A stretch of 40,412 bases of DNA from Clostridia bacterium (GTDB taxonomy: Bacteria > Bacillota > Clostridia > Lachnospirales > Lachnospiraceae). Both the position numbers and the translations under genes were made by a program. The notes under the pieces are model-generated. The model was not told where the DNA came from, did not search any database, and saw only the letters and a list, made by a program, of their open reading frames with translations. This document shows positions 14,505 to 33,731 of the stretch, in pieces. How positions within the stretch are numbered: position 1 is the stretch's first letter; the number at the start of each line of letters is the position of its first letter. The stretch lies in contig JAQXQS010000131.1 of NCBI GenBank assembly GCA_029101305.1, positions 1-40,412 on the forward strand. The letters are read 5' to 3'.

Positions 14505-14620
14505 ATTTAGCTCCTTTGCTTCATCAGAATAATATTCCGAAAATAAAAAATGTTGGAAAAAGGATGGTGAATATTCGTGCATTTCGTCCTTAACTGCAAG
14601 TATATCATGCTATTTGGTTC

Positions 14621-14691
14621 TTGTCTTGGCGGAAACTGTATTTTATGATAAAAAAGAAGTACAGGGTTACAGGTCACGTAGTAAACTGTAA
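14621..14691 (+). promoter_or_regulatory. Candidate promoter and operator of the GH2 gene
   Basis: TTGTCT (14621-14626) and TATGAT (14644-14649) have a 17-bp spacer. Just downstream, TTACAG (14667-14672) and CTGTAA (14686-14691) form an inverted repeat separated by 13 bp. This is a plausible regulator site near the transcription start. The wider divergent region holds no gene. Confidence 0.45.
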
Positions 14692-14781
14692 TGCTACATG
14701 AAGCAAAAGGCAAAAACAAAACAGATTGTGAAATAAAAAATATTGGAATTAAAACAGATTACAGAAAAGGAGAACCAGATT

Positions 14782-17601: not shown

Positions 17602-17733
17602 AAAATGTACAATTTTTTGTGTGAAAAATTGCAAAAGAAAGATTCGCATAATCCAAAATATTTTTTTATGAAAATTTGTACAAGGGAATCAGAAAAAGTG
17701 ACATTGATGATGTTGGCTATAAAAATGTACAAT
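17602..17733 (+). promoter_or_regulatory. Regulated promoter module of the first GH43 gene
   Basis: Three TGTACA cores lie at 17606, 17677 and 17726, spaced 71 and 49 bp. A box TTTATGAAAATTTGTAC starts at 17665. The -35 TTGATG (17704-17709) and -10 TACAAT (17728-17733) are 18 bp apart. The region before the ABC operon (22063-22196) has the same parts at identical spacing, so both are probably bound by one regulator, most simply the AraC-GH39 fusion. Confidence 0.7.
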
Positions 17734-17777
17734 AATAATAGGTTTCCAATAATATATTAGAAAGGCAGATTATAGAA

Positions 17778-19223
17778 ATGAAGCAGATATACAATCCTTA
17801 TTTACCACTAGACGAATACGTACCAGACGGTGAACCTCATTTATTTGACGGACGGGTTTACATTTATGGTTCCCATGATCTGGCTGGGGGAGAGGCCTAT
17901 TGTCAGGGTGATTATGTGACCTGGTCAGCACCGGAGGATGACCTGACAGACTGGAGATACGAAGGCGTGATCTACAGAAAGGATCAGGATCCTTCAAATA
18001 AAGAAATGCACAGGGAAATCTGGGCACCAGATGTGGCGAAAGGTACAGACGGAAGATATTATCTGTTTTACTGCCTGGCCTTTTATCCTGAAATCGGTGT
18101 GGCAGTCAGCGATTCTCCTGCCGGTCCCTTTGAATTTTATGGACATATTCATTATCCGGAAAGTATAAAAAACGGAAAGACACTTTCGGAACATTTACCG
18201 TTTGATCCTGCAGTACTTGTAGATGACGACGGAAAGGTATTTCTTTATTATGGCTTCAGCCCGGCTGTTCCGCTGAAAAAAGAGGGGGATGATGGCGATA
18301 TTGAAGGTGCCGAAAAGCTGGAATTCAGTGAAGGAGCTATGGTAGCAGAACTGGAAAGTGACATGCTGACACTGAAAGAAGAGCCTCACATGATGATTCC
18401 AGGAGGACTGAAGGAAGGCGGAACCAGCTTCGAAGGTCATGGCTTTTTTGAGGCTTCTTCCATGAGAAAAGTAGGTGAAAAATACTATTTTGTATATTCC
18501 AGTAAATTAAGCCATGAACTGTGTTATGCGGTCAGCGACTATCCAGACAGAGAATTTACTTTCGGAGGCACTTTGGTTTCTAACGGGGATATCGGATATG
18601 AAGGAAACCAGGAACCACATAATATGATGGGAAATAATCATGGCGGAATGGTGAACGCAAATGGTCAGTGGTACATTTTTTATCATAGACAGACTCACGG
18701 AACAGAGAGTTCCAGACAGGGCTGTGCCGAAAAAATAACCATCCAGGAAGATGGCAGCATTAAGCAGGTTGAAATGACCAGCTGCGGACTGAACAAGGGA
18801 TGGCTGTCTGATGAAGGCACTTATCCGGCAGCAATCGCATGTAATCTTATGGGCAAAGATTCCATTGGAAAAATCACTTATGGAGCATCTTTGAGAGACA
18901 CGCAGCCATATATTTTTGAAGAGAATACCGCTCTTCATTATATTGCCAATATTGGTGACGGAGTGGTTGTAGGCTATAAATATTTTGCTGTTGAAAGCCT
19001 GTCGAAGGTGGTTCTGTACTTAAGAGGTGATGCAGAAGGTGAGGTTAAAGTAAGTGCAGACCTGGCAGGGGAGAGTGAACTTGGCAGCAGCAGATTTAAA
19101 CTGCAAGGTAAGGAATGGAATACTGTGGAAATTCCGGTAAAAGCAGAAGCTGGAAAAACAGGATTATTCTTTAGATTTGCTATAGCTGGAACTGTGGAAT
19201 TTAAGGAATTCACATTGAGTTAA
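17778..19223 (+). CDS. Glycoside hydrolase family 43
   Basis: A 481-residue cytoplasmic enzyme with an N-terminal five-bladed beta-propeller and a C-terminal beta-sandwich (about residues 330-481). The three GH43 acidic residues are visible: a base aspartate in VPDGEPH (D17), the pKa-modulating aspartate in FDPAVLVDDDG (D143) and the acid glutamate in HGFFEASSM (E225). Members release alpha-L-arabinose or beta-D-xylose by inversion; which one is not decided by sequence. The start is ATG at 17778 after GAAAGGCAG. It has its own regulated promoter (17602-17733) and terminator (19241-19315). A close paralogue of the same length lies at 29065-30510. Confidence 0.9.
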   Translation: MKQIYNPYLPLDEYVPDGEPHLFDGRVYIYGSHDLAGGEAYCQGDYVTWSAPEDDLTDWRYEGVIYRKDQDPSNKEMHREIWAPDVAKGTDGRYYLFYCLAFYPEIGVAVSDSPAGPFEFYGHIHYPESIKNGKTLSEHLPFDPAVLVDDDGKVFLYYGFSPAVPLKKEGDDGDIEGAEKLEFSEGAMVAELESDMLTLKEEPHMMIPGGLKEGGTSFEGHGFFEASSMRKVGEKYYFVYSSKLSHELCYAVSDYPDREFTFGGTLVSNGDIGYEGNQEPHNMMGNNHGGMVNANGQWYIFYHRQTHGTESSRQGCAEKITIQEDGSIKQVEMTSCGLNKGWLSDEGTYPAAIACNLMGKDSIGKITYGASLRDTQPYIFEENTALHYIANIGDGVVVGYKYFAVESLSKVVLYLRGDAEGEVKVSADLAGESELGSSRFKLQGKEWNTVEIPVKAEAGKTGLFFRFAIAGTVEFKEFTLS

Positions 19224-19240
19224 GACTGTAAAGAGAGTTA

Positions 19241-19315
19241 AGGCTGTAAACCGGTGTAAGTCTTTGGCTTCATAATGAATAAAAGATTTGCGCTGTCCGG
19301 TTTACAGCCTTTTTG
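19241..19315 (+). terminator. Terminator of the first GH43 gene
   Basis: AGGCTGTAAACCGG (19241-19254) pairs with CCGGTTTACAGCCT (19297-19310), followed by TTTTGCG. The loop is about 42 nt. Confidence 0.8.
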
Positions 19316-19408
19316 CGTTATATTGAAAAAAGTTTTCCCATGTTATTGTTCATTGGCAACGTTCCGGGAGGTGTTTTTGTGACAAAAGGTCATAGAAACG
19401 CCGAATCA

Positions 19409-21907
19409 TCACACCGGCCTCAACTCCGCAAACCGGATCTCAAACGGTTCCAGCTGTGCTGTATAAGTAAGTGTATGCTTCTCCGTAAAAAGCCGGCTCT
19501 GGTGAAATCCCGGAACACACAGTCCACGCAGCAGATCCGTATCTTGAGGGGAAAGGGGAATGGCGCCCATTTCCAGCCAGATATCATAAGCATTTCCATG
19601 ATGTCTGTTTACAAAATATTCTTTCACATTGTAATTGCCATTAGCAATGTCGGTCAATTGCAGGGAAACATCCAGGTCCTTGGTAGTATCAAAGGCAGTA
19701 TAGCGGTTTGTCTCTGTAATATCAAAAAGTTCTCCAGAAGCGAAAAGATCGCCATAATGAATATAATGATAAGTGATGATCTGGTAACAGACCCCTTTTC
19801 TGGTGATAAAATAGCCGTCTCCTGCGGCAATCAATTCATCCCCCAGCATATTGGCAAAATAAAATACATAGAATACACCCTTGCGCAGACCGCAGCTGGT
19901 ATAAAGACCAAGCCCTCCATGGAACTGATTGGGTGGAAGAGGATTTTCCCGGATCAGGTCAGTAAGGCTCCAATAGCAGAAGGAATCCAGCCTGTCATAA
20001 TTTTTCAGCAGATTTTTCATAATGTAACAGGTCTTGAAGCTGGTATCACTGATCAGATTACGGTGTGACATGGTGAAATTCCATTCAGTCATATAAACTG
20101 GTTTATCCTGGACTCCCAGTGTTTTAAAAATCTTTTTGATTCCTCCGATGAAAAGGCTGAAGTCATCAGTAGCTTTCGGGAAACAGGAGGTTGTAGCCTT
20201 GGTAAGGAAAAAATCATCACTGGAGGTTGGAAGGATGATATCCGCATAATAATGAATATTCATAAAGTCCGGCATACAGCTTTGTTCCCTGCACCAGCCT
20301 ATAAAGCGGTAGATCCAGTCTGCGTTTCCAAGGTTTTCAATGTACAACATGGAAGGACTGCCGAACTGGATTTCCGGGCAGATGCTTTTCACGGTGTCAT
20401 AGGTGTGCTTATAAAATCGGAAAAATAAAGCATCATCTCCAAATCCAAACATCTTCTTAGAGGTAACCGGCTCATTCCACACGGTAAAAGGCCATTGCTT
20501 CACTTCCTCCAGCGTGTAACGGTTGATAAGGTGCCGGGTAAAATCGTCGATTAAAGAATCCCATTCTTTCATATCAGCTGGCGGACTGGTGATAAAAGGA
20601 CAGTAACAAATGGTTTTGTCAGGATCGGCGGCAAGTTCCTTTGGCATGAAGGAAAGCTGGATCAAGGGTTTCAGTCCGATGGAAAGCAGGAAATCCAGAA
20701 CCTGGTCAACCAGAGTATAGGTAAAACGGAGCTCCTGCCCTACACGGCTGACTACCATCATGTCATCGGAAAGAATCCCGTGAAATTTCACATACTTAAA
20801 ACCAACGTTCTTTTGCAGATCTATGAGCATTTCCTGGATATTCCGGTCCAGCAGTTCCGCTGCACGTCCCACACTGGTAAAGGTTTTGAAGGTATGACGA
20901 AGGTGTGAGATAGATTCTGTAACCCGGATATCTGAGACAGAAATTTCTTTATGTACAGCAGAAGGCATAGAGTGGGCAGAAAGATCGTTGGTTGACAGAT
21001 ATTTGGTAAGCTTCTGCAGGTAGTTGCTTGGCTCAAGAAGCAGATAATTGATATCGCTGCCCGCAGTTTTTGCTGTCGGATTCTGAGCCTGCTGTTTCCG
21101 GAAAGCACTTGGCAGCATCTGGTATTGTTTCTTAAAGGTGCGGATAAAGGCGTGGGATTCCGTAAATCCATTTCGCATGGCTATGGTTTCTATGGAATCC
21201 TTTGTTGAGATCAGATCACTTACAGCGTGTTCCAGCTTTATGCTGTTGTAATACTGGGTAAACTTGACACCCATATATTTGTCGAAGAACTGGGAAAGGT
21301 AAGGCACAGAAAGGTTCTCCATGGCTGCCAGGTCACTGAGGGAAAAGTTTTCCGCATAATGCTCATTAATATAATTGATGATACGGGTAAGACGCTCCAT
21401 GTATTTCTGCTGCTTCTGCAAGGTTTCAGAGGCATTGGACTTAAAGTTCTCCAGAAGCTGGGAAACCAGATAGTAGCTGAGTGAATAATTCAGGTAGTCG
21501 GTTCCGTCAGAGTGATAGGAGTTTGCCTGGATCAGGGAAGCTATGGCGAAGCGGATATTGGCATATCGCTTGAAATCAGGGGTGGTGGCGCTGTTGCAGT
21601 CAAAAATAATAGAGGTCAGGTCTGACTGAAACTGGTTGAACAGGGAGAGCTTGATCTGAACTGCGATCATGACGGCCCCTGTTTCAGAATATATTTCATG
21701 AATGCTGTTAGAGTTAATGAGGATCACGTCCTCATCCTTCAGTTTCCAGGTATTTCCGTCTACGGTGATAATGATGTTTCCCTCCAGCACCATCAGCAGT
21801 TCCAGACTGGAGTGCCAGTGTTTGGTAACGGAGCCAAGCTTGTGGATAAATATTTTCAGAGGGATATGTGAACCGAATTCTATGATTTCGTGACGCTCGT
21901 CTAACAT
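19409..21907 (-). CDS. AraC-type regulator fused to a GH39 (beta-xylosidase-like) domain
   Basis: The 832-residue protein joins an N-terminal cupin (about 1-110), an AraC double helix-turn-helix (about 185-285; DLAAMENLSVPYLSQFFDKY and GFTESHAFIRTFKKQY) and a complete GH39 barrel (about 310-832). The GH39 acid/base glutamate is present in VWNEPV (E479) and the nucleophile in MTEWNF (E608), so the barrel may still bind or cut a beta-xyloside or similar sugar. The fusion architecture is known in Firmicutes, but whether the barrel is a sensor or an enzyme is open. The start is ATG at 21905-21907 with AAGGAG 7 nt upstream. It sits between two promoters with the same TGTACA layout and is divergent from the ABC operon, which it likely controls. 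Confidence 0.92.
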   Translation of the reverse strand: MLDERHEIIEFGSHIPLKIFIHKLGSVTKHWHSSLELLMVLEGNIIITVDGNTWKLKDEDVILINSNSIHEIYSETGAVMIAVQIKLSLFNQFQSDLTSIIFDCNSATTPDFKRYANIRFAIASLIQANSYHSDGTDYLNYSLSYYLVSQLLENFKSNASETLQKQQKYMERLTRIINYINEHYAENFSLSDLAAMENLSVPYLSQFFDKYMGVKFTQYYNSIKLEHAVSDLISTKDSIETIAMRNGFTESHAFIRTFKKQYQMLPSAFRKQQAQNPTAKTAGSDINYLLLEPSNYLQKLTKYLSTNDLSAHSMPSAVHKEISVSDIRVTESISHLRHTFKTFTSVGRAAELLDRNIQEMLIDLQKNVGFKYVKFHGILSDDMMVVSRVGQELRFTYTLVDQVLDFLLSIGLKPLIQLSFMPKELAADPDKTICYCPFITSPPADMKEWDSLIDDFTRHLINRYTLEEVKQWPFTVWNEPVTSKKMFGFGDDALFFRFYKHTYDTVKSICPEIQFGSPSMLYIENLGNADWIYRFIGWCREQSCMPDFMNIHYYADIILPTSSDDFFLTKATTSCFPKATDDFSLFIGGIKKIFKTLGVQDKPVYMTEWNFTMSHRNLISDTSFKTCYIMKNLLKNYDRLDSFCYWSLTDLIRENPLPPNQFHGGLGLYTSCGLRKGVFYVFYFANMLGDELIAAGDGYFITRKGVCYQIITYHYIHYGDLFASGELFDITETNRYTAFDTTKDLDVSLQLTDIANGNYNVKEYFVNRHHGNAYDIWLEMGAIPLSPQDTDLLRGLCVPGFHQSRLFTEKHTLTYTAQLEPFEIRFAELRPV

Positions 21908-21958
21908 GGGAATCTCCTTTTTTATTTATTGATGCCACGGATTGTTTTGCAGCTATGC

Positions 21959-22018
21959 GGGTTCCAAGTTCAAAAGCTTTATCGTGCAAGCACGAACAGC
22001 TTTTTGACCTTTGGACCC
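21959..22018. repeat. Long hairpin repeat, copy 1
   Basis: A 60-nt near-palindrome runs from GGGTTCC to GGACCC with the centre ATCGTGCAAGCACGA. A second copy lies at 34497-34556. Here the outer stem is intact. It lies in the 5' region of the AraC-GH39 gene. Confidence 0.75.
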
Positions 22019-22062
22019 TGGCATTATAATTATTATGATATACGTAATTTGAAATGTAAATA

Positions 22063-22196
22063 AAAAAATGTACATTTTTTAACCTAAAAAAATTAAAACC
22101 ACAGGATTATTGAAGAAAATTTATGATTTTATGAAAAATTGTACTATCCAATGAGAAAAAGTAGCCTTGAAGCAGTCTCTTTCAAAAAGGTACAAT
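22063..22196 (+). promoter_or_regulatory. Regulated promoter module of the sugar ABC operon
   Basis: A perfect 18-bp palindrome (AAAAAATGTACATTTTTT, 22063-22080) is the first TGTACA core. TGTACT (22140) and GGTACA (22189) follow at 71 and 49 bp. TTTATGAAAAATTGTAC starts at 22128. The -35 TTGAAG (22167-22172) and -10 TACAAT (22191-22196) have an 18-bp spacer. The box-to--35 distance (39 bp) equals that in the GH43 module. Half-site-like ATGAAAAATTGTAC and ATGAGAAAAAGTAG are 20 bp apart, as AraC-type dimers prefer. Confidence 0.72.
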
Positions 22197-22244
22197 ATAA
22201 CCATGAAAGGAACAGACCAAGGAGTGGAATTTTCGGAGGAAACT

Positions 22245-23750
22245 ATGGAAAAAGAATTACTGATTGAAGTAAAAAATATGACCAAGTTTTTCGGACCGAC
22301 CCAGGCTCTGAAAGGAGTAGACCTGAAGTTCTACCGCGGAGAGATCCGTGGACTGATCGGGGAGAACGGAAGCGGAAAGTCTACAGTTACTTCAATTATT
22401 GCAGGAATGCAGGCTGCCAGCGGCGGTGAAATGCTTTACAAGGGCCAGAGCTGGAAACCTGGAAATATGGTGGAAGCCCAGAAGGCCGGAATCAGTATGG
22501 TACTTCAGGAAGCAAACACCATACCGGATTGTACAGTGGCAGAGAACCTTCTGGCAGGACGGTTTGATGAATTTTCGAAATTTGGATTTGTGAGCATGAA
22601 AAAAGCAAATGAAGAGGCAGAGAGAATGCTTCAGAAATTTGGAATCAAAAATATTCATGCGAAGGACAGCATTAACAAGCTTACATTCGAGGACAGAAAG
22701 CTGATCGAAATTGTCCGCTGCGTATCCGATGAAACAGAGGTTTTCGTGGTGGATGAGACAACAACAGCACTTTCCCTGGAGGGACGCCAGATTTTGTATA
22801 AGCTGATTCATGAGATGAAAGACAGAGGAAAATCTGTAATCTTCATTTCCCATGATATGGATGAAATCCTGGAGCAATGTACAGACCTGACTGTTTTACG
22901 AGATGGAAACATCATCGGTCATCTGAACCGGGAAGAAATGGACGCACCGAATGCGGTACAGAGAATCCGTTACATGATGGTTGGAAGGGAAATCGGAGAG
23001 GCCTATTACCGTGAAGATTATGATACCAGCCACAGCGATGAGGTTGCGTTGGAATTGAAGAATATTTCTTTTGGTCCAATTAAGAATTTTTCCCTTACCT
23101 TACATAAAGGCGAGATCATCGGTTTCGGAGGATTATCCGGATGCGGAATGCATGAGGTTGGCCGGGCGGCTTTCGGACTTGAGAAACTGGAATCCGGAAG
23201 TGTGGTGCGAAATGGAAAAGAGATTAAGACCTGTTTGCAGGCAATCGAATCCGGAATCGGTTATATTTCCAAAAACCGTGATAAAGAGGCTCTGATCCTG
23301 GAGGGCTCCATTCAGGAAAACATTGTACTTCCGCTGCTTCCGTCTCTGGAGCATGGAACCTTCGTCAATCCGGCGGCTGAAAAGAACAGTGCAGATAAAG
23401 AAATCGATTCCTTCCGGATCAAGTGCAACAGTGGAAAGCAGTGGGTCAGCACCCTGAGTGGTGGAAATAAGCAGAAGGTTTCTTTTGCCAAGTGGACAGC
23501 AAGAGGTTCCGAGGTACTGATCATGGATTGTCCCACCCGAGGGGTTGATATTGGTGTCAAACAATCCATGTATGCGCTGATCGCGAAAATGAAAAAAGAA
23601 GGAAAAGCAATCATTCTGATCAGCGAAGAGATGGCAGAGCTGATCGGTATGGCTGATAAGATCATTATCATGAAAGATTTCGTAAAAACTGGCGAAGTAA
23701 TGCGTTCTCCTGAACTGAAGGAGACAGACATTATCGAGTATGTAATATAA
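22245..23750 (+). CDS. Sugar ABC transporter ATP-binding protein (CUT2/RbsA-like)
   Basis: A 501-residue protein with two fused nucleotide-binding domains, typical of ribose/xylose/galactose-type importers. Domain 1 has Walker A GENGSGKST (39-47) and Walker B VFVVDETTTAL, but a weak signature (LTFEDRKLIEI). Domain 2 has the degenerate Walker A usual for the family (GLSGCGMHE) and a good LSGGNKQKV signature. Its Walker B reads MDCPTRGVD, with cysteine (C429) where the catalytic glutamate normally stands. The start is ATG at 22245 after GGAGGAAA; ATG at 22203 is in frame but has a weaker site. It is first in the operon and its stop is 13 nt before the first permease. Confidence 0.94.
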   Translation: MEKELLIEVKNMTKFFGPTQALKGVDLKFYRGEIRGLIGENGSGKSTVTSIIAGMQAASGGEMLYKGQSWKPGNMVEAQKAGISMVLQEANTIPDCTVAENLLAGRFDEFSKFGFVSMKKANEEAERMLQKFGIKNIHAKDSINKLTFEDRKLIEIVRCVSDETEVFVVDETTTALSLEGRQILYKLIHEMKDRGKSVIFISHDMDEILEQCTDLTVLRDGNIIGHLNREEMDAPNAVQRIRYMMVGREIGEAYYREDYDTSHSDEVALELKNISFGPIKNFSLTLHKGEIIGFGGLSGCGMHEVGRAAFGLEKLESGSVVRNGKEIKTCLQAIESGIGYISKNRDKEALILEGSIQENIVLPLLPSLEHGTFVNPAAEKNSADKEIDSFRIKCNSGKQWVSTLSGGNKQKVSFAKWTARGSEVLIMDCPTRGVDIGVKQSMYALIAKMKKEGKAIILISEEMAELIGMADKIIIMKDFVKTGEVMRSPELKETDIIEYVI

Positions 23751-23763
23751 GGAGGCAAAAGAA

Positions 23764-24744
23764 GTGGGAAAAGATAAAAGTAAAACAGCCTCCTGGCTGA
23801 AAACACATATTTATGATGTTGCTGCTTACGCAGGACTTGCGATTACCGTAATTCTCTTTCTGATCTTCAGTGGAGATAAGCTGATGTATAATGTGACGAC
23901 TGTGTTACAGACAGTTGCCCCGTATGCGATCATTTCCCTGGGTGCGGTATTTGTTTATTCTATGGGATTTATGGATGTCAGTGTAGGACAGCAGGTTGGT
24001 GTATATGCCATTTTGTACATACTGATTTCCAACAAATTGGGTGGAACTACAAAAGGAGTAGTCGTTGCATTTATAGTAGTCCTTGCAATTGCTCTTGCGT
24101 GCGGTGCATTTAACGGTGCCGTTGCAGTATGGCTGGGACTTCCCTCTATCGTAACTTCCCTGTTCCTGATGTTCTTTTTCACCGGGGCACAGCTGCTTCT
24201 GATGGAAGGAACAGGAAATACCAGTATTTCCATCCAGGCGAAGATTAAGCCTATGGACAGGAACGAGTACACGATCATGCTGATCATAGCAATTGTGGTG
24301 GTAGCACTTCTGGTTGGTTATTTCTTCAAATATACAAAATTTGGAAAATATACCAAAGCAATCGGTGCGAACGAGGTGGTAGCAGAGCAGTCTGGTGTAA
24401 ATACCACGAAGTGGAAAGTATTTGCCTACATGGCGTTTGGAGCTACTGTTGCAATTGGCTCCTTCATTATGCTGACCCGTACCGGCAGCGCAGGAAAAGG
24501 AACTGGAACCGGCTTTGCAATGGACGTTATGATCTGTCTGATCCTTGGTGGAATGCCTCTTTCAGGAGGAATGAAATCCAAAGTCAGCAGTGCACTGATC
24601 GGAACTTTTACTTATGTACTTCTCAGTAACGACCTTACCACCATGGGAGTTGACCTGAACATGATCAATTTCCTGAAGGCAGTTATTTTTATCATTATTG
24701 TTATGATTACATGCCGGAAACGGGATGGAGTGCTTCCAAGATGA
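23764..24744 (+). CDS. Sugar ABC transporter permease (CUT2/RbsC-like), first of two
   Basis: A 326-residue membrane protein with about 9-10 helices of the BPD_transp_2 family. Typical stretches are SLGAVFVYSMGFMDVSVGQQ (the family's usual VLLTGGIDLSVG position), the conserved loop GANEVVAEQSGVNTTKWK and LILGGMPLSGG. It would form a heterodimer with the permease at 26105-27094. The start is GTG at 23764 with AAGGAGG upstream. It is followed by a hairpin repeat (24776-24802) before the binding-protein gene. Confidence 0.93.
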   Translation: MGKDKSKTASWLKTHIYDVAAYAGLAITVILFLIFSGDKLMYNVTTVLQTVAPYAIISLGAVFVYSMGFMDVSVGQQVGVYAILYILISNKLGGTTKGVVVAFIVVLAIALACGAFNGAVAVWLGLPSIVTSLFLMFFFTGAQLLLMEGTGNTSISIQAKIKPMDRNEYTIMLIIAIVVVALLVGYFFKYTKFGKYTKAIGANEVVAEQSGVNTTKWKVFAYMAFGATVAIGSFIMLTRTGSAGKGTGTGFAMDVMICLILGGMPLSGGMKSKVSSALIGTFTYVLLSNDLTTMGVDLNMINFLKAVIFIIIVMITCRKRDGVLPR

Positions 24745-24775
24745 TGTTATTTCGTTGCTGTTTACTGGTAGTCGT

Positions 24776-24802
24776 GTTGCTGTGAACGGAGTGAACAGTA
24801 AC
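24776..24802. repeat. 27-nt hairpin repeat (GTTGCT...AGTAAC), copy A
   Basis: The palindrome begins GTTGCTGTGAAC and ends GTGAACAGTAAC. Copies of exactly the same length lie at 30558-30584 and 37194-37220. Here it separates the permease and the binding-protein genes, where a stable hairpin could protect the downstream mRNA. Confidence 0.7.
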
Positions 24803-24909
24803 ATTATTTTCGAAAAATGTAGATGTTTCCGGAAAGAATATGAAAGAAGTAAGAAAATGTTAATTAAACAATTTCAAAATAAAAAACAATTTCAAGGAGG
24901 ATTTGTCAA

Positions 24910-26073
24910 ATGAAAACATCCAAAAAACTTATGGCACTTGCAGTAGCAGGAACTATGACCGCTTCTTCTCTTAGCATGGTATCTGTATCCGCAGAACCGA
25001 AGAAAGCCACAATTGGCGTATGCTTCTATCAGGATACAGGAAAAGCTGTAGATGCTACAAAGGCATTTCTGGAATCTCTGTCTGACACATTAAATGTAGA
25101 ATTTAAGTATGGTACTTTTACACAGACAGATGAAGCTGCAAACCTGACAAAAGTACAGGAGTTGATTGCTTCCGGTGTAGACGGAATCATCGGTACCATG
25201 GATCTTGGAACACCATCTATTCTTTCTGAGTGCGATGCGGCAGGAATTTATTATGGCGGTTATCTCTGCGACTTTGATACTTCTTATACTTCTGCATATG
25301 ACGATGTTTTTGGAAATCCAAACTTCGTTGGAACAGTAACAGATGGACATAATCCAGATGATGTCTGCATTGGAACCCAGTGCTTCGACAGCTTGATCGA
25401 GTATAATGAGAGAAATGCAGATAACCCGATCACCCATGTGTCACTGGCTATTTTCCCGGCATGGGCGTTCCCTGCACAGGCAATGGGTGCGGACCAGTTC
25501 ATTGCAGCTGTTGATGAATATAATAAGACAGCAGAGACTCCGATCACAGTAGATCCGCTTGATGAGGAAGTTGATGTACTGAACTTTGCTCCGCTTGACA
25601 GTACCTATTTCTCCAAACATCCTGATACACAGGCAATCATCAGCCTTGCTGCAGGAACTTCTTTCGTATATCCGACTATGGTTTCTGCTGGTGTAGATTC
25701 TGATATTAAGCTGTTTACAACCGGTTATGAAGGCGGCGAGGAAAACAACTTTGGTTCTGCAGGAAACCAGACCTATCAGCAGGTTGTAGTTACAGGAGCT
25801 GAGACAATTGTTTACCCACTTGTACTGATGTTAAACAAGATCAATGAGACTGAGTTTGCTGATATGCCGGAAAAAGCAGAGAGAATCAGCACAGAGCAGT
25901 ATATTGTAAACAGTGATGAGGATATGGAACTTTTTGTAAATTCTCTTTACACCACTGCTGATGTATCCGCTGCGGCATATACACCAGAGGATGTTCTGAA
26001 CATGACAGCATTTGGAAATCCGGATGCAACATATGCAGATCTTGTAAGTGCAGTACAGTGTCTGACCTACTAA
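24910..26073 (+). CDS. Sugar ABC transporter substrate-binding protein
   Basis: A 387-residue exported protein that would capture the glycoside for the CUT2 importer; the family fold is the two-lobed periplasmic binding protein. A signal peptide (about 1-28) ends in VSVSA|EPKK, a signal peptidase I site. There is no lipobox cysteine, which is odd for a Gram-positive binding protein. The mature start (KKATIGVCFYQDTGKAVDAT) and ASGVDGIIGTMDLGT fit the family. The start is ATG at 24910 after AAGGAGG. It lies third in the operon, flanked by the two permease genes. The ligand is not predictable from the sequence; the neighbourhood suggests a plant-type oligosaccharide or glycoside. Confidence 0.9.
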   Translation: MKTSKKLMALAVAGTMTASSLSMVSVSAEPKKATIGVCFYQDTGKAVDATKAFLESLSDTLNVEFKYGTFTQTDEAANLTKVQELIASGVDGIIGTMDLGTPSILSECDAAGIYYGGYLCDFDTSYTSAYDDVFGNPNFVGTVTDGHNPDDVCIGTQCFDSLIEYNERNADNPITHVSLAIFPAWAFPAQAMGADQFIAAVDEYNKTAETPITVDPLDEEVDVLNFAPLDSTYFSKHPDTQAIISLAAGTSFVYPTMVSAGVDSDIKLFTTGYEGGEENNFGSAGNQTYQQVVVTGAETIVYPLVLMLNKINETEFADMPEKAERISTEQYIVNSDEDMELFVNSLYTTADVSAAAYTPEDVLNMTAFGNPDATYADLVSAVQCLTY

Positions 26074-26104
26074 GACAAAGTTAAGCAAACGATTGGAGTA
26101 TGCT

Positions 26105-27094
26105 ATGAAAGCTGTAAAAAAAGTATTATTGTCACTGGTTTTACCAGTGCTGATGTTTGTGGTGATGCTTGTCATCACCATGAACAGCGATAAATGTATT
26201 GTAAACGGACGTAATATTTTCCTTGGAAAAGATCTGCTCAAGCAGGTTGTGATTAACAGTTGCATGACAGTTTGTGTGGCACTTGCAATCTGGCTTCAGC
26301 TGAAAAACGGACGCTTCGATTTCTCTGGCGGTGCTTCTATGGTTCTTGCAGCAATCGGCGCAGGGTATGTGGGACAGCATACCGGAAGCATGTGGGCTGC
26401 ATTTGCGACTGCAATCGCTCTTGGGGTGGTCCTTTCCATGGGAACTGCAATTGTCTATATTGTGGGAAGACTGCCGATCATTATCTGTACCATTGGAATG
26501 ACACTTTTATATGAGTCTCTGACATATCTGTTATTTGGAGGACAGGGAATCCGCGGATTTTATTCCACTCCTGCACTTTCCAAAATGGGACGTATGCCGC
26601 TGGTTCTTCTTCCGGCAGCGCTGGCAATGATACTTTTTGTAGTGTATACCTACTTTACAGCTTCCGGACGCAGGGGAAAGATTCTTGCAAACAATCAGAG
26701 TGCCGGTGTGAATATCGGAATCAATGAAAAGAAAAACGTATTTGTTTCCTATATTTTCTCCGGACTGATCATCGGACTTGCAGCAATCGTCTATATTTCA
26801 CAGAATGATGTCACACCACAATCCGGACTTGCAACTTCTTCCATTATGTTTTCCTATATCGTTCCGGTATTTATGGGAACCTTTATCGGACTGGCAAGCA
26901 ATGATGTGATCGGAATCGCAATCGCAGCAATTGGAATGGAAATCCTGAATTATGGTCTGAACTGTCTGAACCTGGGAGCAGGCGGATGGCAGCAGATCAT
27001 CATGGGAATCTTCGTACTGGGATTCTATACATTCTCTTCCCAGTCTGGAAGAATAGCAGCTTTCTTTGAAAAAAGAAAAGCAGTAAGAGCATAA
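26105..27094 (+). CDS. Sugar ABC transporter permease (CUT2/RbsC-like), second of two
   Basis: A 329-residue membrane protein of the same family as the first permease, with KNGRFDFSGGASMVLAAIGA at the usual DLSVG position and the conserved loop NNQSAGVNIGINEKK. The start is ATG at 26105, with GGAG 6 nt upstream; the longer frame starts at TTG 26093, which overlaps that site. It completes the transporter and is followed by the terminator at 27107-27169. Confidence 0.93.
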   Translation: MKAVKKVLLSLVLPVLMFVVMLVITMNSDKCIVNGRNIFLGKDLLKQVVINSCMTVCVALAIWLQLKNGRFDFSGGASMVLAAIGAGYVGQHTGSMWAAFATAIALGVVLSMGTAIVYIVGRLPIIICTIGMTLLYESLTYLLFGGQGIRGFYSTPALSKMGRMPLVLLPAALAMILFVVYTYFTASGRRGKILANNQSAGVNIGINEKKNVFVSYIFSGLIIGLAAIVYISQNDVTPQSGLATSSIMFSYIVPVFMGTFIGLASNDVIGIAIAAIGMEILNYGLNCLNLGAGGWQQIIMGIFVLGFYTFSSQSGRIAAFFEKRKAVRA

Positions 27095-27169: not shown

Positions 27170-27189
27170 AGAAAAGGATGAAAATAATT

Positions 27190-28878
27190 ATGATCGATAT
27201 AAAGGCAGCACCATTTAACCTGGATGATGAAGGGGTGAAATGGGTAGAAGAGACAAAGAAAGCAATGACACTGGAGGAGAAGATCGGACAGCTGATGGTT
27301 CCTATCGGCTATTCTGCTGATCCTGGCTATCTGCAGCACGTAATGCTGGATCATCATATCGGCGGTATTTTGTACCGCTGTGGGGAAAGTGAAGAAATGC
27401 AGGCTTGTCACAGATGGCTTCAGGAGCACAGCAAAATCCCGCTTTTTATTGCTGCAAACCTGGAAGCTGGCGGTGACGGAATCGCTGTAGATGGAACCTC
27501 TTTTGGAAAACAGATGGAAGTGGCTGCGACTGGTGATCCTGAGCAGGCATACCGTCTTGGCAAGATTTCCTGCTCCGAAGGAAAAGCAGTAGGCTGTAAC
27601 TGGGCATTTGCCCCGGTAGTGGACATTGACAGAAACTGGAGAAACCCGATTACAAATGTGCGTACCTATGGAGCGGATCCGGAGTTTGTCCTGAAATGCG
27701 GTCTGGCATACAAACGTGGTGCGGATGAGGAAAACGTAGCAGTTTCCATCAAGCATTTCCCAGGAGATGGCTGTGATGAAGTAGACCAGCATATCCTCAC
27801 AAGTGTAAATAATCTTTCCTGCGAAGAGTGGGATGAAACATATGGAAAAATTTATAAAGGCCTGATTGATGACGGGGCTTTGACTGTTATGGTAGGACAT
27901 ATTGCCCAGCCTGCTTATCAGAAGCATTTTAACCCGGATTTCCCGGATAAACTGGTTCCGGCAACCTTAAGCCCGGAGCTGCTTCAGGGACTGCTTCGCG
28001 GTAAGCTTGGATTCAATGGACTTATCAGCACTGATTCTACCTGTATGCTTGGATTTACAGTTGGAATGAAGCGTGAGAAAGCTGTTCCGTATTCCATTGA
28101 AGCTGGCTGTGATATGTTCCTGTTTAATAAAGATCTTCATGAAGATTATATGTACATGCTGAATGGCTATAAGAACGGAATCCTTTCTGAGAAGAGACTG
28201 GATGAGGCAGTTACCAGGATCCTTGCAGCCAAGGCTGCAATCGGGCTGCATAAAAAAGCAAAAACAGAACTGGTTCCGGCAAAAGAAGATCTTTCTATCC
28301 TGAGAAATGATGTTTATGAAAGCTGGGCACATGAATGTGCAGATAAATCTGTCACACTGGTAAAGAATAACGAAAACGTTTTGCCAATCTCACCGGAAAA
28401 AACAAAGAGAATCCTGCTGGAGATCCTTGGTGACTATCCTTCCAGTGCAAGAGTTACAGAGCGTTGGAAAGCACTTCTGGAAAAAGAGGGATTTGAAGTT
28501 TCCATATATCAGAAAGAAGATTTCTCATCCGAACCTGATTTTTCCGTAGGAGGATTTCTGAAGAAATACGATCTGGTTCTTTATATAGGAAATATGGAGA
28601 ATGCTTCGAATCAGGTAACTAACCGTTATCAGTGGTACACCTTCTGGGGAAATGGAGATAACTGCCCATGGTTTACAGCAGAGGTTCCGGTTATTTATGT
28701 AAGTATGGGAAATCCATATTCTCTTATTGATGTACCGCAGATTCAGACATATATCAACTGCTATTCCAACAATGATTATGTCATTGATGCATGTGCGGAG
28801 AAATTAATGGGGCGGTCTGAATTTAAAGGAAAAAGCCCGGTGGATCCGTTCTGCGGCAAGGAATATCTAAGATATTAG
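27190..28878 (+). CDS. Glycoside hydrolase family 3, NagZ-like catalytic dyad
   Basis: A 562-residue cytoplasmic enzyme with the GH3 barrel: LEEKIGQLMVPIGY, IPLFIAANLEAGG and FAPVVDIDRNWRNP. The loop KHFPGDG (188-194) is followed by D199 and H201 (VDQH), the Asp-His acid/base pair of NagZ-type beta-N-acetylglucosaminidases. The nucleophile is D282 in STDST. The C-terminal GH3 domain is present only in short form (about 380-562). Asp-His GH3 enzymes can act as hydrolases or phosphorylases on beta-glucosides or beta-GlcNAc. The start is ATG at 27190; ATG 27178 is in frame but sits on the ribosome binding site AAAAGG. Confidence 0.88.
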   Translation: MIDIKAAPFNLDDEGVKWVEETKKAMTLEEKIGQLMVPIGYSADPGYLQHVMLDHHIGGILYRCGESEEMQACHRWLQEHSKIPLFIAANLEAGGDGIAVDGTSFGKQMEVAATGDPEQAYRLGKISCSEGKAVGCNWAFAPVVDIDRNWRNPITNVRTYGADPEFVLKCGLAYKRGADEENVAVSIKHFPGDGCDEVDQHILTSVNNLSCEEWDETYGKIYKGLIDDGALTVMVGHIAQPAYQKHFNPDFPDKLVPATLSPELLQGLLRGKLGFNGLISTDSTCMLGFTVGMKREKAVPYSIEAGCDMFLFNKDLHEDYMYMLNGYKNGILSEKRLDEAVTRILAAKAAIGLHKKAKTELVPAKEDLSILRNDVYESWAHECADKSVTLVKNNENVLPISPEKTKRILLEILGDYPSSARVTERWKALLEKEGFEVSIYQKEDFSSEPDFSVGGFLKKYDLVLYIGNMENASNQVTNRYQWYTFWGNGDNCPWFTAEVPVIYVSMGNPYSLIDVPQIQTYINCYSNNDYVIDACAEKLMGRSEFKGKSPVDPFCGKEYLRY

Positions 28879-29064: not shown

Positions 29065-30510
29065 ATGAAGAAACAGGCATATAACCCATATTTACCCCTT
29101 AATGAATATGTACCGGACGGGGAGCCCCATGTGTTTGGAAAACGGTTATACGTATATGGCTCCCACGATCTTGCAGGAGGAGAGAGGTATTGCATGCAGG
29201 ATTATGTAGTCTGGTCAGCGCCTGTTTCAGATCTGTCTGACTGGAAATATGAAGGCGTTTCCTACAGGAAAGACCAGGATCCGTCAAATCCTGGTGGCGA
29301 AAGGGCTCTTCAGGCACCAGATGTGGCAAAGGGCCCGGACGGGAGATATTATCTGTATTACTGTGTGACTTTTGTGCCGGAAATCGGAGTGGCAGTCAGT
29401 GATTCACCTGCCGGACCTTTTGAATTCTATGGACATATCCGTTATCCGGAAAGTATCAGAAATGGAAAAGAATTAAATGAATATCTCCCCTTTGACCCGG
29501 CGGTGCTGGTGGATGATGATGGAAAGGTATGGCTGTATTACGGCTTTTGCCCGGAAATTGATATGGAGAAACCAGATATGGGCGTGGAAGAAAAACAGGA
29601 AATGGGCATCAGCCCGGGAGCCATGGTAGCAGAATTGGAGCCGGATATGCTTACGTTGAAGGAAGAGCCGGTAATGATGGTTCCGGGGCAGAAGCTGGAG
29701 AAAGGCACAGAGTTCGAAGGACATGGATTCTTTGAGGCGTCTTCTATGAGAAAAGTGGGAGAGAAGTATTATTTTGTGTATTCCAGCCATTTAAGTCATG
29801 AATTGTGTTATGCAGTCAGTGACTATCCAAACAGGGATTTTTCTTATGGTGGAACGCTTATTTCAAATGGTGATATTGGATATCAGGGGAATGCAGTTCC
29901 CAGGAATATGATGGGCAATAATCATGGTGGAATGATTTGCGTAAATGGTCAGTGGTATATTTTTTACCATCGCCAGACACATGGAACTGAGTGTTCCAGA
30001 CAGGGGTGCGCTGAGAAAATCACCATTGGAGCAGATGGGAAAATCCAGCAGGTGGAGATGACAAGCTGTGGACTGAATGCTGGTGCACTTACAGGAAAAG
30101 GAAAATATCCGGCAGCTATTGCATGTAATCTTATCTGCCCTGGGAATGATGGAAAAATAAATTATGGTGAATGCAGGAGAGAGCGGTTCCCATATATTTT
30201 CCAGGATGGGGAGACACATTATATTGCAAATGTGCAGCAGGACGTGAAGGTTGGATATAAGTATTTTTCTTATGAGGAAGAACTTTCTTGTGTGAAGATG
30301 ATTGTAAGAGGAAGTGCCGAAGGAAAGATTCTTGCAGCTGCGGATGAAAGCGGAGAATTACTCAGAGGGGAAGCTGATATCCGGTTAGAGAATGAGATCC
30401 AGTGGCAGACTGTGACAATTCCGTTTAAGACTGGAAAAGCTGTGGAACCGCTGTATTTCATTTTTGAGATTTCCGGAACGCTGCAGTTTATGGAATTTGA
30501 GTTTATGTAA
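29065..30510 (+). CDS. Glycoside hydrolase family 43 (paralogue of 17778-19223)
   Basis: A 481-residue enzyme. Sequence identity with the first GH43 is high by eye (roughly two thirds or more) over the whole length. The acidic triad is D18 in VPDGEPH, D144 in FDPAVLVDDDG and E224 in HGFFEASSM. A variable loop after residue 155 (DMEKPDMGVEEKQEMG) differs from its paralogue. It is expected to remove arabinose or xylose from imported glycosides in the cytoplasm. The start is ATG at 29065 after GAGGAAAGG. The regulated TGTACA module of the first copy is absent here, so the two genes are likely under different control. It lies between GH3 and GH78. Confidence 0.9.
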   Translation: MKKQAYNPYLPLNEYVPDGEPHVFGKRLYVYGSHDLAGGERYCMQDYVVWSAPVSDLSDWKYEGVSYRKDQDPSNPGGERALQAPDVAKGPDGRYYLYYCVTFVPEIGVAVSDSPAGPFEFYGHIRYPESIRNGKELNEYLPFDPAVLVDDDGKVWLYYGFCPEIDMEKPDMGVEEKQEMGISPGAMVAELEPDMLTLKEEPVMMVPGQKLEKGTEFEGHGFFEASSMRKVGEKYYFVYSSHLSHELCYAVSDYPNRDFSYGGTLISNGDIGYQGNAVPRNMMGNNHGGMICVNGQWYIFYHRQTHGTECSRQGCAEKITIGADGKIQQVEMTSCGLNAGALTGKGKYPAAIACNLICPGNDGKINYGECRRERFPYIFQDGETHYIANVQQDVKVGYKYFSYEEELSCVKMIVRGSAEGKILAAADESGELLRGEADIRLENEIQWQTVTIPFKTGKAVEPLYFIFEISGTLQFMEFEFM

Positions 30511-30641: not shown

Positions 30642-33600
30642 ATGAGAATTGAGGACATAAAAATCAATGGCATCGAAAATCCGGTTGGTTTCGAACTGGA
30701 TCACTTGAAATTGTCCTGGAAGGTGCGGGAAAGCGTATCTAAAAGGGCGGAGAATGTTCTTATCGAGGTAAGTGATAAGGCGGATTTTTCCAAATGTATC
30801 TGGAAAAAACAGGGGGCTGATCTGGATTGTACAGGACAGGAAATCGCTGTCCGGGTAGAGCCATATACCCGTTATTACTGCCGTGTTACGGTGACAGGAG
30901 ATGCTGGTGATCTGGGATGTGGAACAGCTTTTTTCGAAAGGGGAAAAGGAAAAACTCCATGGGTTGGTAAATTTATTACCACTGCGGAAGATGATAAGTT
31001 CCATCCTGTTTTTGAGAAGAATTTTGAAGTAAAAGGTATGGCTGGCGTACAAGATGTAGTGACCCAAAACGGAATGCCTGAGAAAACTGTATCAGAAAAA
31101 GTTACAGCAGAGAAAGCAGTATCAGATAAAGCTACATCAGAAAACTGTGCATGTGATAATGGGACTACAAAAGTTGAAAAGAGCATTCTGAGAGCCAGAC
31201 TGTATGTAACCGGCTTAGGTGTATATGAAGCCTGTATCAATGGAAAAAAAGCCGGTGAAGATATCCTGGCTCCATTTTGCAATGATTACCGGGAAAAAAT
31301 CCAGTATCAGACCTACGATGTGACCGACCATCTGCTTGGTGGTCAGGAAAATCAGATTTCAATTTATTGTGGCAATGGGTGGTACAAAGGCAGACTTGGA
31401 TATGAAGGCGCATCCCAGTGCTATGGAACCAGATTTGCGGCTATTGCAGAGCTTCATATCTGGTATGAGGATGGCAGTGAGACTGTGGTTGCCACAGATG
31501 AGACCTGGACATACCGGGGCAGCGATATCGAAATGAGTGATCTCTATGATGGGGAAGTGTTGAACCGACAGCTGTGGAAGGAAAAAGAAAATACAGCGAA
31601 ACCAGTACAGCTCATCGAAAAAGACAAGGGAACCCTGATGGGGGAAATTACTCTTACTACGGCGCAGCTTACTGAGCGTTACAGTCTTCCGGTGAAGGTA
31701 AAAGAGACACTTACGGTACGGGAGATTATTCACACACCAGCCGGTGAGACTGTCCTGGATATGGGACAGAACATGGTTGGCTTCGTGGAATTTGATTCAG
31801 AACTTCCGGCTGGAACAAAAGTTACTCTGGATTTCGGGGAAGTGCTGCAGCAAGGCAATTTCTATAATGATAACTATAGAACGGCAAAGGCCAGATATGA
31901 GTATATTTCGGATGGCAGAAGGGAAAAGGTACGCCCGCATTTCACCTTCTTTGGCTTCCGCTATGTGCGTGTGACAGGATGGCCTGGGGAAGTAGATCCA
32001 TCTGTATTTCGCGGATGTGTGGTGTATTCCGATTTGGAAACAACCACATATTTTGACTCTTCTTCTGCACAGCTGAACCGCCTTGCAAAAAACTGTATGT
32101 GGGGACAAAAGTCCAATTTTCTGGACATGCCTACAGATTGCCCGCAGCGTGATGAAAGACTGGGCTGGACAGGAGATGCACAGGTATTTGCACCTACCGC
32201 CTGCTACAACATGGATACCAGGGCTTTTTACCGGAAGTTTTTAAAAGATCTGCATATCGAGCAGAGAAAACAGAACGGTGCGATTCCAAACTTCATTCCG
32301 AACCTGGGAGGTCTTCCTGGCGGGTCCAGTGTATGGGGTGATGCAGCAACTTTTATTCCGATGGTTCTGTATCATCATTACGGAGATAAAGATGAATTAA
32401 GACAGAATTATTCCATGATGAAAGAATGGGTAGACTGGATCATCCGGAGTGATGAACAAAATGGAAATCAGAATCTGTGGAATTTCGGATTCCATTTCGG
32501 AGACTGGCTTGCCCAGGATGGTATCTCACCACAGAGCATGAAGGGCGGCACAGATGATGCACTGGTAGCATCCCTGTACTATTTTGCTTCGACGGGAAAA
32601 GTGGCAGAAGGTGCAGAAATTCTGGGATACAAGCTGGAAGCAGAGTACTACCATGAGAAAGCTGAGAAAATTCGTGGCGCAATTCTGAATGAATTTTTTG
32701 CTGTAAATGGAAGACTGGCGATAGATACACAGACAGCCTATCTTATGTGCCTGAATTTTGGCGTATATCGTGATAAAAACAAGCTGATTTCCGGACTAAA
32801 AGAGAGATTAAGAAAAGATTGTTATAAAATCAAAGGAGGCTTCGTGGGAGCTACCATGCTTTGCCAGGTGCTTGCCCAGAATGGACTTGAAGATGTAGCA
32901 AGCTATATTTTGTTCCAGGAGGGCTTCCCTGGCTGGATGCATTGTGTAAATCTGGGAGCCACCACGATCTGGGAAAGATGGAATTCCATTCTGGATGATG
33001 GTACCATAAGCGGAACAGACATGAACTCCCTGAACCATTATTCCTATGGCTCTGTAATGGAGTATGTGTACCGTTATATGGCAGGAATCCAGGAAATGGA
33101 GCCAGGATTTAAAAAGGTGCGCTTCGCGCCTCAGCTGAATAATAAGCTTGGCTATGTCACATACAGCTATGATTCTGTAAGTGGAAAATATACTTCTGCA
33201 TGGAAAGTAAACGAAGACGGCACGGTGACAGTCCGGTTTGAAATTCCTTTTGGATGCAGCGCGGTGGCGGTGCTGCCAGATGTGGCGGAGATGAAATCGT
33301 ACGTGGAACTGAAGGGTGAAGAGGGAGAAAACGAAAGAAGCGGAACCGACGGAAAGGAAAACGGAAGTAAGGAAACGCCGCAGAATTTACAGGGTGAGAT
33401 CAAGCTTTCAGCAGGTATCTATGAATTCTGCTACCGAACAAACCGGGACTACAGAAAAGCGTACACCATGAATTCCCGTCTGGAAGAAATGCAGAATGAT
33501 CTCCGTGCAATGGAAATCCTGGCACGGAAAATGCCGCTTGCGGTGGACAAGATCAACAGTCAGGACCCAGAGAACCTGAACTTAAGTCTGAATGAATTAC

Positions 33601-33683
33601 AGTATATGTTTTTCCTGGGATTTAATCCGAAGATGGTACAAGGTGCGGCTGCGGAGCTTATGCAGCTGGATGTAATCAGATAA
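30642..33683 (+). CDS. Glycoside hydrolase family 78 alpha-L-rhamnosidase
   Basis: A 1013-residue cytoplasmic enzyme. It starts with the family's Fn3-like domain (KINGIENPVGFELDHLKLSW), then the carbohydrate-binding-like domain and the alpha/alpha barrel. The hallmark is MPTDCPQRDERLGWTGDAQ, with the acidic pair D504/E505. It releases L-rhamnose from rhamnogalacturonan or from plant glycosides such as rutinosides. Two low-complexity inserts are present: about residues 132-172 with two 10-residue repeats, and a Glu/Lys/Gly-rich stretch near residues 890-918. The C-terminus carries an extra helical tail of about 75 residues (SRLEEMQNDLRAMEILARKM). The start is ATG at 30642 after AAGAGGAAA. The phosphoglucomutase follows closely. 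Confidence 0.94.
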   Translation: MRIEDIKINGIENPVGFELDHLKLSWKVRESVSKRAENVLIEVSDKADFSKCIWKKQGADLDCTGQEIAVRVEPYTRYYCRVTVTGDAGDLGCGTAFFERGKGKTPWVGKFITTAEDDKFHPVFEKNFEVKGMAGVQDVVTQNGMPEKTVSEKVTAEKAVSDKATSENCACDNGTTKVEKSILRARLYVTGLGVYEACINGKKAGEDILAPFCNDYREKIQYQTYDVTDHLLGGQENQISIYCGNGWYKGRLGYEGASQCYGTRFAAIAELHIWYEDGSETVVATDETWTYRGSDIEMSDLYDGEVLNRQLWKEKENTAKPVQLIEKDKGTLMGEITLTTAQLTERYSLPVKVKETLTVREIIHTPAGETVLDMGQNMVGFVEFDSELPAGTKVTLDFGEVLQQGNFYNDNYRTAKARYEYISDGRREKVRPHFTFFGFRYVRVTGWPGEVDPSVFRGCVVYSDLETTTYFDSSSAQLNRLAKNCMWGQKSNFLDMPTDCPQRDERLGWTGDAQVFAPTACYNMDTRAFYRKFLKDLHIEQRKQNGAIPNFIPNLGGLPGGSSVWGDAATFIPMVLYHHYGDKDELRQNYSMMKEWVDWIIRSDEQNGNQNLWNFGFHFGDWLAQDGISPQSMKGGTDDALVASLYYFASTGKVAEGAEILGYKLEAEYYHEKAEKIRGAILNEFFAVNGRLAIDTQTAYLMCLNFGVYRDKNKLISGLKERLRKDCYKIKGGFVGATMLCQVLAQNGLEDVASYILFQEGFPGWMHCVNLGATTIWERWNSILDDGTISGTDMNSLNHYSYGSVMEYVYRYMAGIQEMEPGFKKVRFAPQLNNKLGYVTYSYDSVSGKYTSAWKVNEDGTVTVRFEIPFGCSAVAVLPDVAEMKSYVELKGEEGENERSGTDGKENGSKETPQNLQGEIKLSAGIYEFCYRTNRDYRKAYTMNSRLEEMQNDLRAMEILARKMPLAVDKINSQDPENLNLSLNELQYMFFLGFNPKMVQGAAAELMQLDVIR
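31080..31139 (+). repeat. Two 30-nt coding repeats within the GH78 gene
   Basis: The units encode EKTVSEKVTA and EKAVSDKATS, with a third partial unit following. They occupy residues 147-166, in a hydrophilic insert of the N-terminal half. Confidence 0.8.
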
Positions 33684-33731
33684 TATTGCATAGGCAATGT
33701 GATTAAGTTTGAGATAGATTGGAGAAAACAG

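Follow-up and report, generated by a model that had tools for sequence, protein, structure and literature searches.

A shared promoter architecture on both sides of an AraC-GH39 regulator gene suggests a small local regulon in a Lachnospiraceae genome

Organization of the locus

The stretch of DNA analyzed here (the window) is the 40,412 nucleotides of contig JAQXQS010000131.1 in assembly GCA_029101305.1, from a Clostridia bacterium of the Lachnospiraceae. It includes a gene for an AraC-family regulator fused to a GH39 glycoside hydrolase domain (AraC-GH39), which is convergent with the GH43 gene GH43a and is followed by a divergent series coding for the ATPase, permease, putative binding protein, and permease of a sugar ATP-binding cassette (ABC) transporter and a GH3 enzyme, and then by a second GH43 gene (GH43b), an alpha-L-rhamnosidase gene, and a HAD hydrolase gene (Table 1). 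We infer from gene order and spacing that the ABC operon is cotranscribed. The regions upstream of GH43a and of the ABC operon have a common arrangement of boxes and promoter hexamers, and we consider it likely, with good confidence, that each is an operator-promoter module served by AraC-GH39, whose gene lies between the two.

Table 1. Genes and candidate regulatory elements of the locus (window positions)
Feature	Positions	Strand	Basis or remarks
GH43a glycoside hydrolase gene	17778..19223	+	Pfam Glyco_hydro_43
AraC-GH39 regulator gene	19409..21907	-	convergent with GH43a; cupin/AraC_binding N-terminus, HTH_18, C-terminal GH39
Sugar ABC transporter genes (ATPase, permease, putative solute-binding protein, permease)	22245..27094	+	profile matches, synteny
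GH3 gene	27178..28878	+	after ABC genes; profile match, synteny
GH43b gene	29065..30510	+	downstream of ABC genes and GH3
Alpha-L-rhamnosidase (GH78 type) and HAD hydrolase genes	30642..34361	+	
Distal box, GH43a promoter	17602..17618	-	probably inverted half-site CACAAAAAATTGTAC; same place relative to proximal box as in ABC promoter
Proximal half-site, GH43a promoter	17664..17681	+	TTTTATGAAAATTTGTAC
Probable second, weaker direct half-site, GH43a promoter	17689..17703	+	TCAGAAAAAGTGACA; 22 bp downstream of first, abuts -35; 8/15 at offset 22
GH43a promoter	17704..17733	+	TTGATG, 18 bp, TACAAT
Putative regulator-gene promoter	22032..22060	-	TTTACA, 17 bp, CATAAT; consensus match only; -35 is 9 bp from distal GTAC
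Distal box, divergent region	22065..22081	-	AAAATGTACATTTTTTA on +; probably inverted half-site GGTTAAAAAATGTAC on -
Proximal half-site, ABC promoter	22127..22144	+	TTTTATGAAAAATTGTAC
Probable second direct half-site, ABC promoter	22152..22166	+	22 bp downstream, abuts -35; 9/15 at offset 22, 10 at offset 20
ABC promoter	22167..22196	+	TTGAAG, 18 bp, TACAAT

Two promoters with the same arrangement

A preliminary description, made from the sequence alone, had noted three cores at spacings of 71 and 49 bp in both promoters, and these can be read directly: GTAC starts at 17607, 17678, and 17727 (distal, proximal, and third) in front of GH43a, and at 22070, 22141, and 22190 in front of the ABC genes. 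Among the 130 plus-strand GTACs of the window, only these two sets have the 71- plus 49-bp spacing; the 71-bp pair on its own is also confined to the two promoters, and the 49-bp pair occurs once more, at 38650. The same description reported a box 39 bp before a TTGANG -35, an 18-bp spacer, and a TACAAT -10, and this too is found in both promoters, with box TTTATGAAAAWTTGTAC starting 39 bp upstream of TTGATG (17704) and TTGAAG (22167). These elements are all present, but the list was incomplete, since it omitted a second common block, AATSAGAAAAAGT, which lies between the box and the -35. The statement that the downstream genes are unrelated holds for the first genes only, as GH43b, after the ABC genes, is a paralogue of GH43a (67% identity across 479 amino acids). 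The window scan found no match to the box upstream of GH43b.

Without gaps, 17660-17735 and 22123-22198 are identical at 54 of 76 positions, and the next best place in the window, on either strand, reaches 38 of 76; local alignment of the two upstream regions scores 55, and the highest score among 300 shuffles is 38. In the 3.52-Mb assembly (93.7% complete), TATGAAAAWTTGTAC is present exactly at only two places, both of them here. The significance lies in the combination of elements and their spacing.

Conservation of the layout in relatives

The closest regulators are those of genomes G581 and G510 (61 to 62% identity), G534 and G547 (loci L061 and L123; 56 to 57%), and G362 (locus L071; 56%); a scan of genome contigs for the regulator contributed one relative. 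The regulator is divergent from a neighboring ABC operon in all five, including G510, in which the regulator gene is split over two contigs and its start adjoins the operon. The ATPases of these operons are 69 to 78% identical to that of the window. For the binding protein, identity is 67% in L061 and L123 and just 27 to 29% in G510, G581, and L071, so that the cargo may differ. The GH3 gene also follows the ABC genes at many relative loci, with a GH43 gene in its place in L061 and L123.

We compared six promoters, namely the two of the window and the ABC promoters of G510, G581, L061, and L071 (the five ABC promoters being this set without that of GH43a). Their layout is a distal box, 71 to 72 bp, a proximal box, 22 bp, the -35, 17 to 18 bp, and the -10. 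The distal-to-proximal distance is 71 bp in both window promoters, G510, and G581, and 72 bp in L061 and L071; the hexamer 26 bp past the proximal GTAC (or its equivalent, ATTC in L061 and AACC in L071) starts with TTG in six of six, and 17 to 18 bp further on all six have TACAAT or TATAAT. The expectation that relatives keeping the genes would also keep the cores was borne out: cores and spacing are exact in G510 and in G581, which was first read after the pattern had been fixed, and are degenerate, with the 72-bp distance, in G534/G547 and G362.

Conservation is concentrated in the boxes. Mean pairwise identity among the five ABC promoters is 0.68 in the distal block (0.33 expected), 0.63 in the proximal block (0.37 expected), and 0.54 in the second half-site (0.36 expected), values reached by none of 500 shuffles in each case, and the 44- to 45-bp spacer is at chance level (0.29, with 0.29 expected; 245 of 500 shuffles). 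With the GH43a promoter included, the spacer is slightly over chance (0.33 versus 0.30; 20 of 500 shuffles). Scored with a fixed-geometry matrix of the two window modules, G510 reaches 25.5, where shuffles do not exceed 1.5, and its native gap ranks first of 121; all 100 shuffles are beaten at three of the 18 AraC-GH39/ABC intergenic regions scanned (G510, L061, and its near copy L123). When the distal and proximal boxes are matched separately on the plus strand of L071, the top matches are 63 bp apart from start to start, compared with 62 in the window.

Allowing up to three mismatches, the bipartite site that includes AATSAGAAAAAGT is found at the window's two places and at none in 63 other genomes of the same genus; a single one of these 63 encodes a homologue of the regulator at E<=1e-120 (36% identical). 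The presence of the module with close regulators and its absence from these congeners indicate that it travels with this AraC-GH39 gene. In six genomes, exact copies of a pattern built on the second half-site of the relatives, AGAAACCAGTGAACTTG, are confined to the ABC promoters of G510, G547, and G534, with two two-mismatch matches elsewhere. No further regulon members were found with a looser pattern of proximal core, -35, and -10: its extra matches (one in this genome, on C163, two in G362, and one in G534) have no clear distal box, judged by eye, in the 95 bases upstream. A box on C122, one mismatch off, was rejected, as it overlaps the end of an open frame.

Shared stretches and related loci elsewhere are recorded here as separate observations. 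A stretch around TTGTATATATTTGTACAAAATAGTCAAATACAA, possibly a leader structure, is common to the ABC loci of G510 (L111:1009-1108) and G581 (L147), where it follows the -10 of the ABC promoter; the window promoters lack it. In G534, L112:475-4697 has the same order of GH43, convergent AraC-GH39, and divergent ABC genes, with a regulator 30% identical. Related ABC operons (ATPase 58 to 61% identical) lie beside a LytTR response regulator and a GHKL kinase at L095:3886-5939, L096:9826-11957, and L097:11767-13823; the regulator of this transporter type has thus been exchanged in some lineages, with LytTR/GHKL instead of AraC-GH39.

Anatomy of the sites

The three-site architecture first proposed for each promoter needs revision: two conserved boxes and a probable second half-site stand, and the third TGTACA core is the -10 hexamer (GTACAAT; GGTACA in the ABC promoter). 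We reject the third core as a conserved regulator site because it coincides with the -10 and is plain TATAAT at this place in four relatives (G510, G581, L061, and L071). The distal box is probably the same half-site in inverted orientation; a plus-strand reading is less likely, as the minus-strand reading better matches the module's own proximal site in five of six modules (10 to 11 of 15, versus 4 to 7). The distal box of the window ABC promoter is ambiguous in this comparison (12 of 15 on the plus strand and 11 of 15 on the minus strand). The repeat that defines the second half-site is modest, with 6 to 9 of 15 positions at offset 22, which is best or joint best of offsets 19 to 23 in five of six promoters, the exception being the window ABC promoter, where offset 20 beats 22; its place relative to the -35 is fixed in all six.

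On the minus strand, a putative -35 of the regulator gene lies 8 to 10 bp past the distal box in the window, L061, L071, and G581, with a -10 at 31 to 32 bp; these promoters are consensus matches, and in L061 another pair ties at 8/12. For the GH43a copy the promoter scan gave no minus-strand promoter, the best pair scoring 8/12 at other distances. That this copy keeps a distal box without a divergent promoter points either to a role of the box at the forward promoter as well or to a recent origin of the copy.

The AraC-GH39 regulator and its neighbors

The regulator has an AraC-type helix-turn-helix region (HTH_18, 65.1 bits, cut-off 33.6; HTH_AraC, 42.7, cut-off 26.6), a cupin-like ligand-binding domain (AraC_binding, 34.0 bits, cut-off 21.1; Cupin_2, 36.8, cut-off 27.2), and a Glyco_hydro_39 match (221.1 bits, cut-off 26). 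The five layout-sharing regulators have ExH[AT]F[IV]RxFKK in the putative recognition helix, a stretch that we presume from the fold to be helix 6; seven others aligned with them lack it. Identification of the regulator as AryK of Staphylococcus (NCBIfam NF047455) was rejected, since its score of 187.3 bits, with residues 28-418 aligning best, is far under the cut-off of 850.

The C-terminal domain resembles the GH39 beta-xylosidases 1px8/1uhv and 2bs9; those chains are enzymes of about 500 amino acids, and the match is limited to the GH39 part (E=7.6e-61 to 1px8, query 344-800 only). E479 (WNEP) and E608 (TEW) align with the NEP and TE motifs of the beta-xylosidases, and we take them to be the catalytic glutamates of GH39. 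Both are kept in five of five distinct homologues of at least 55% identity (window included; the G510 homologue being a piece without the AraC part), and in 22 of 48 aligned homologues, or 16 of the 40 with an AraC part, with alignments under about 30% identity being unsure at these sites. Many AraC-GH39 proteins thus look like dead enzymes, but the closest relatives of the window regulator do not. The loss of one or both glutamates in most AraC-bearing homologues argues that the domain is probably a sensor in the family at large, and in the window regulator it is possibly still an enzyme. That it is at once an active glycosidase and a sensor, cleaving the glycoside that activates the regulator, is a speculative and rather unlikely possibility; if true, induction of the transporter and GH43a would self-terminate as substrate is depleted.

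The transporter ATPase matches ABC_tran in two stretches (duplicated) and the permeases match BPD_transp_2 (95.0 and 50.5 bits; cut-off 26.8), a combination that we take as monosaccharide-type and label CUT2-like. The gene in the solute-binding protein position (24910-26073) scores 18.4 bits with Peripla_BP_4, under the cut-off of 35.1, and its product is perhaps a divergent binding protein. Elsewhere in the window, a second AraC-family gene (13476-14582, minus strand) is divergent from a GH2 gene (14743-17535) and forms a separate local pair with it; 5943-11138 encodes a 1,731-amino-acid protein that carries Big_3 domains as well as BspA-type leucine-rich repeats and is probably a large surface protein; and 37820-39502 encodes a predicted AAA-ATPase with a PDDEXK_9 domain, a 32% homologue of which is also found near the regulator in L061.

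A candidate mechanism and its alternatives

A small regulon of AraC-GH39, as the preliminary description had proposed, draws support from the architecture, from its conservation in close relatives, and from its co-occurrence with the regulator. The regulator probably controls both promoters, because the arrangement is kept before the matching transporter genes in some relatives. We suggest that a regulator dimer would bind TATGAAAAWTTGTAC together with a weaker SAGAAAAAGT-like block, as direct half-sites that have a 22-bp spacing and end at the -35, and would recruit RNA polymerase to a promoter whose -35 is poor (TTGATG/TTGAAG). A sugar bound by the cupin domain, the GH39 domain, or both could then activate the ABC operon and GH43a. 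In the divergent region, 9 bp separate the distal box from the putative -35 of the regulator gene, and this box would probably serve autoregulation, perhaps by way of an interaction with the proximal site. The GH43a promoter would be a second copy of the module without a recognizable divergent promoter.

Several results qualify this interpretation or weigh against it. The full pattern occurs without mismatch at only three places in 397 family genomes (the GH43a, window ABC, and G510 ABC promoters; the one-mismatch match in G078 overlaps a long open frame, and two matches arise with the reversed pattern), but it was drawn after G510 had been seen, so that the search measures rarity elsewhere and not blind discovery; G581 is outside the sample. 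The box alone is not specific, and with mismatches it is not beyond chance: at up to three mismatches the 15-bp box has seven matches in the window versus 4.3 expected (14 of 100 shuffles reach seven), and at up to two it has 44 in the genome versus 32 for a reversed-pattern control. The boxes of L061 and L071 were placed by best match, and the conservation shuffles do not allow for the choice in L061, where the distal box chosen ranks second among the matches (13.5 bits, with the best, 15.6, lying 52 bp further upstream) and the window's gap of 62 ranks 14th of 121, behind gaps of 115 and 63 in first and second place. L071 is weak, its fixed-geometry score being reached by eight of 100 shuffles and its local match to the proximal ABC box by 198 of 200. 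At fourteen loci with regulators 26 to 43% identical there was no convincing match (their scores are equaled by 2 to 75 of 100 shuffles, L074 being the best at 2), and L112 has no module common to its two promoters (73 of 300 shuffles). The second half-site differs between this genome and its relatives (6 to 11 of 22 positions identical), and in G510 the putative -10 of the regulator gene is 24 bp from the distal box, not 31 to 32.

Control comparisons were also negative. Four control regions, three beside LytTR genes (L095, too short at 100 bases; L096, 154 bases; L097) and L114, gave no match, and local alignment of each window box with ten intergenic regions and three controls, a set that predates the inclusion of G510 and G581, was at most marginal outside the window (best in L061, 3 of 200 shuffles).

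The modules could instead be bound by another regulator, either the AraC-type protein encoded at 13476-14582 or a global regulator, with AraC-GH39 a bystander. The second AraC gene is about 3 kb from GH43a, beside GH2, and its proximity is a further point against our assignment. However, the box is not matched in its divergent intergenic region (14583-14742) even when three mismatches are allowed, no homologue of this gene is reported in the 9- to 20-kb stretches at the ABC loci of G510, G581, G534, G547, and G362, and AraC-GH39 adjoins the ABC operon in all five of these; a bipartite site that occurs just twice in the genome and in none of 63 congeners is also ill-suited to a global regulator. 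We therefore regard a bystander role as very improbable. Slightly less credible again is that the similarity is a mere remnant of promoter duplication with no present role at GH43a. A copying event is itself likely, as the window modules share a type of second half-site (14 of 22 identical, versus 9 to 11 between GH43a and four relatives and 6 to 9 between the window ABC promoter and the relatives) and have residual identity in the spacer (21 of 44, with 14.6 expected; 120 of 5,000 dinucleotide shuffles reach this), but their boxes are identical at 15 of 17 and 17 of 18 positions, the same blocks are conserved in the relatives' ABC promoters, and neutral decay would not leave exactly those blocks intact. 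Most likely, the ABC promoter was copied to GH43a in this lineage, although parallel change with the regulator would give the same picture.

Compatible with the same protein and sites is that AraC-GH39 acts mainly as a repressor, looping from the distal to the proximal site, with activation a minor part. The spacing of 71 to 72 bp is constant, and GH43a retains a distal box in a region that lacks a divergent promoter in the promoter scan; this spacing and the probably inverted distal half-site are compatible with a DNA loop without being proof of one. Against a predominantly repressing role, the tandem sites stop at the -35, leave the -10 uncovered, and precede a poor -35, a layout taken for that of activators in the portions available of a Caldicellulosiruptor bescii study (PMC8579813), and we consider such a role unlikely.

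Regulation of both promoters by AraC-GH39 would mean that, by comparison alone, a candidate operator and a two-promoter regulon have been assigned to an AraC protein fused to a glycosidase domain. Among the papers found on AraC proteins with a GH39 or other glycoside hydrolase domain, none has a title or abstract opening that describes an operator for such a fusion. With an operator in hand, the ligand of the regulator, and hence the glycan of the ABC/GH3/GH43/rhamnosidase locus, could be screened for with a simple reporter, and the system offers a way of asking whether the glycosidase domain is a sensor, an enzyme, or both.

Comparison with known systems

At araBAD of Escherichia coli, AraC binds direct half-sites extending up to the -35, with a further half-site that serves looping and control of the divergent regulator promoter. 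The candidate half-site plan of the window would be similar, but the looping distance is about 210 bp in E. coli and 71 bp here, where a loop is only putative. In the sections available for Pseudomonas fluorescens MtlR, an AraC/XylS-type regulator, footprinted similar 15-bp blocks at PmtlE cover -72 to -58 and -50 to -36, 22 bp apart and upstream of the -35 (PMC4514859). MtlR is a Pseudomonas mannitol regulator, and in those sections there is no mention of a GH39 domain or of an inverted distal box 71 bp away; the window blocks would nonetheless lie at closely similar positions, about -73 to -59 and -51 to -37, with a start site assumed 7 bp past the -10.

Among Gram-positive systems, the C. 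bescii AraC-family carbohydrate regulators are described, in the parts available, as having tandem repeats upstream of the promoter and as inferred activators (PMC8579813). GH39 has no occurrence in that text, in which the CUT2 example AxgR is assigned to the AraC family in one passage and to the DeoR family in another; as proposed for the window, the AraC-type regulators are local and ABC sugar transporters are among their targets. For Roseburia and Eubacterium rectale, the accessible portions of the source give no operators and no AraC-GH39 fusion, and the Gram-positive polysaccharide utilization loci described there join glycoside hydrolases, an ABC transporter, and an AraC- or LytTR-type regulator (PMC5320581), as does the locus described here. 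Set beside these systems, the two modules and the gene between them appear to form a well-supported local regulon whose type is already known and whose regulator is fused to an enzyme domain.

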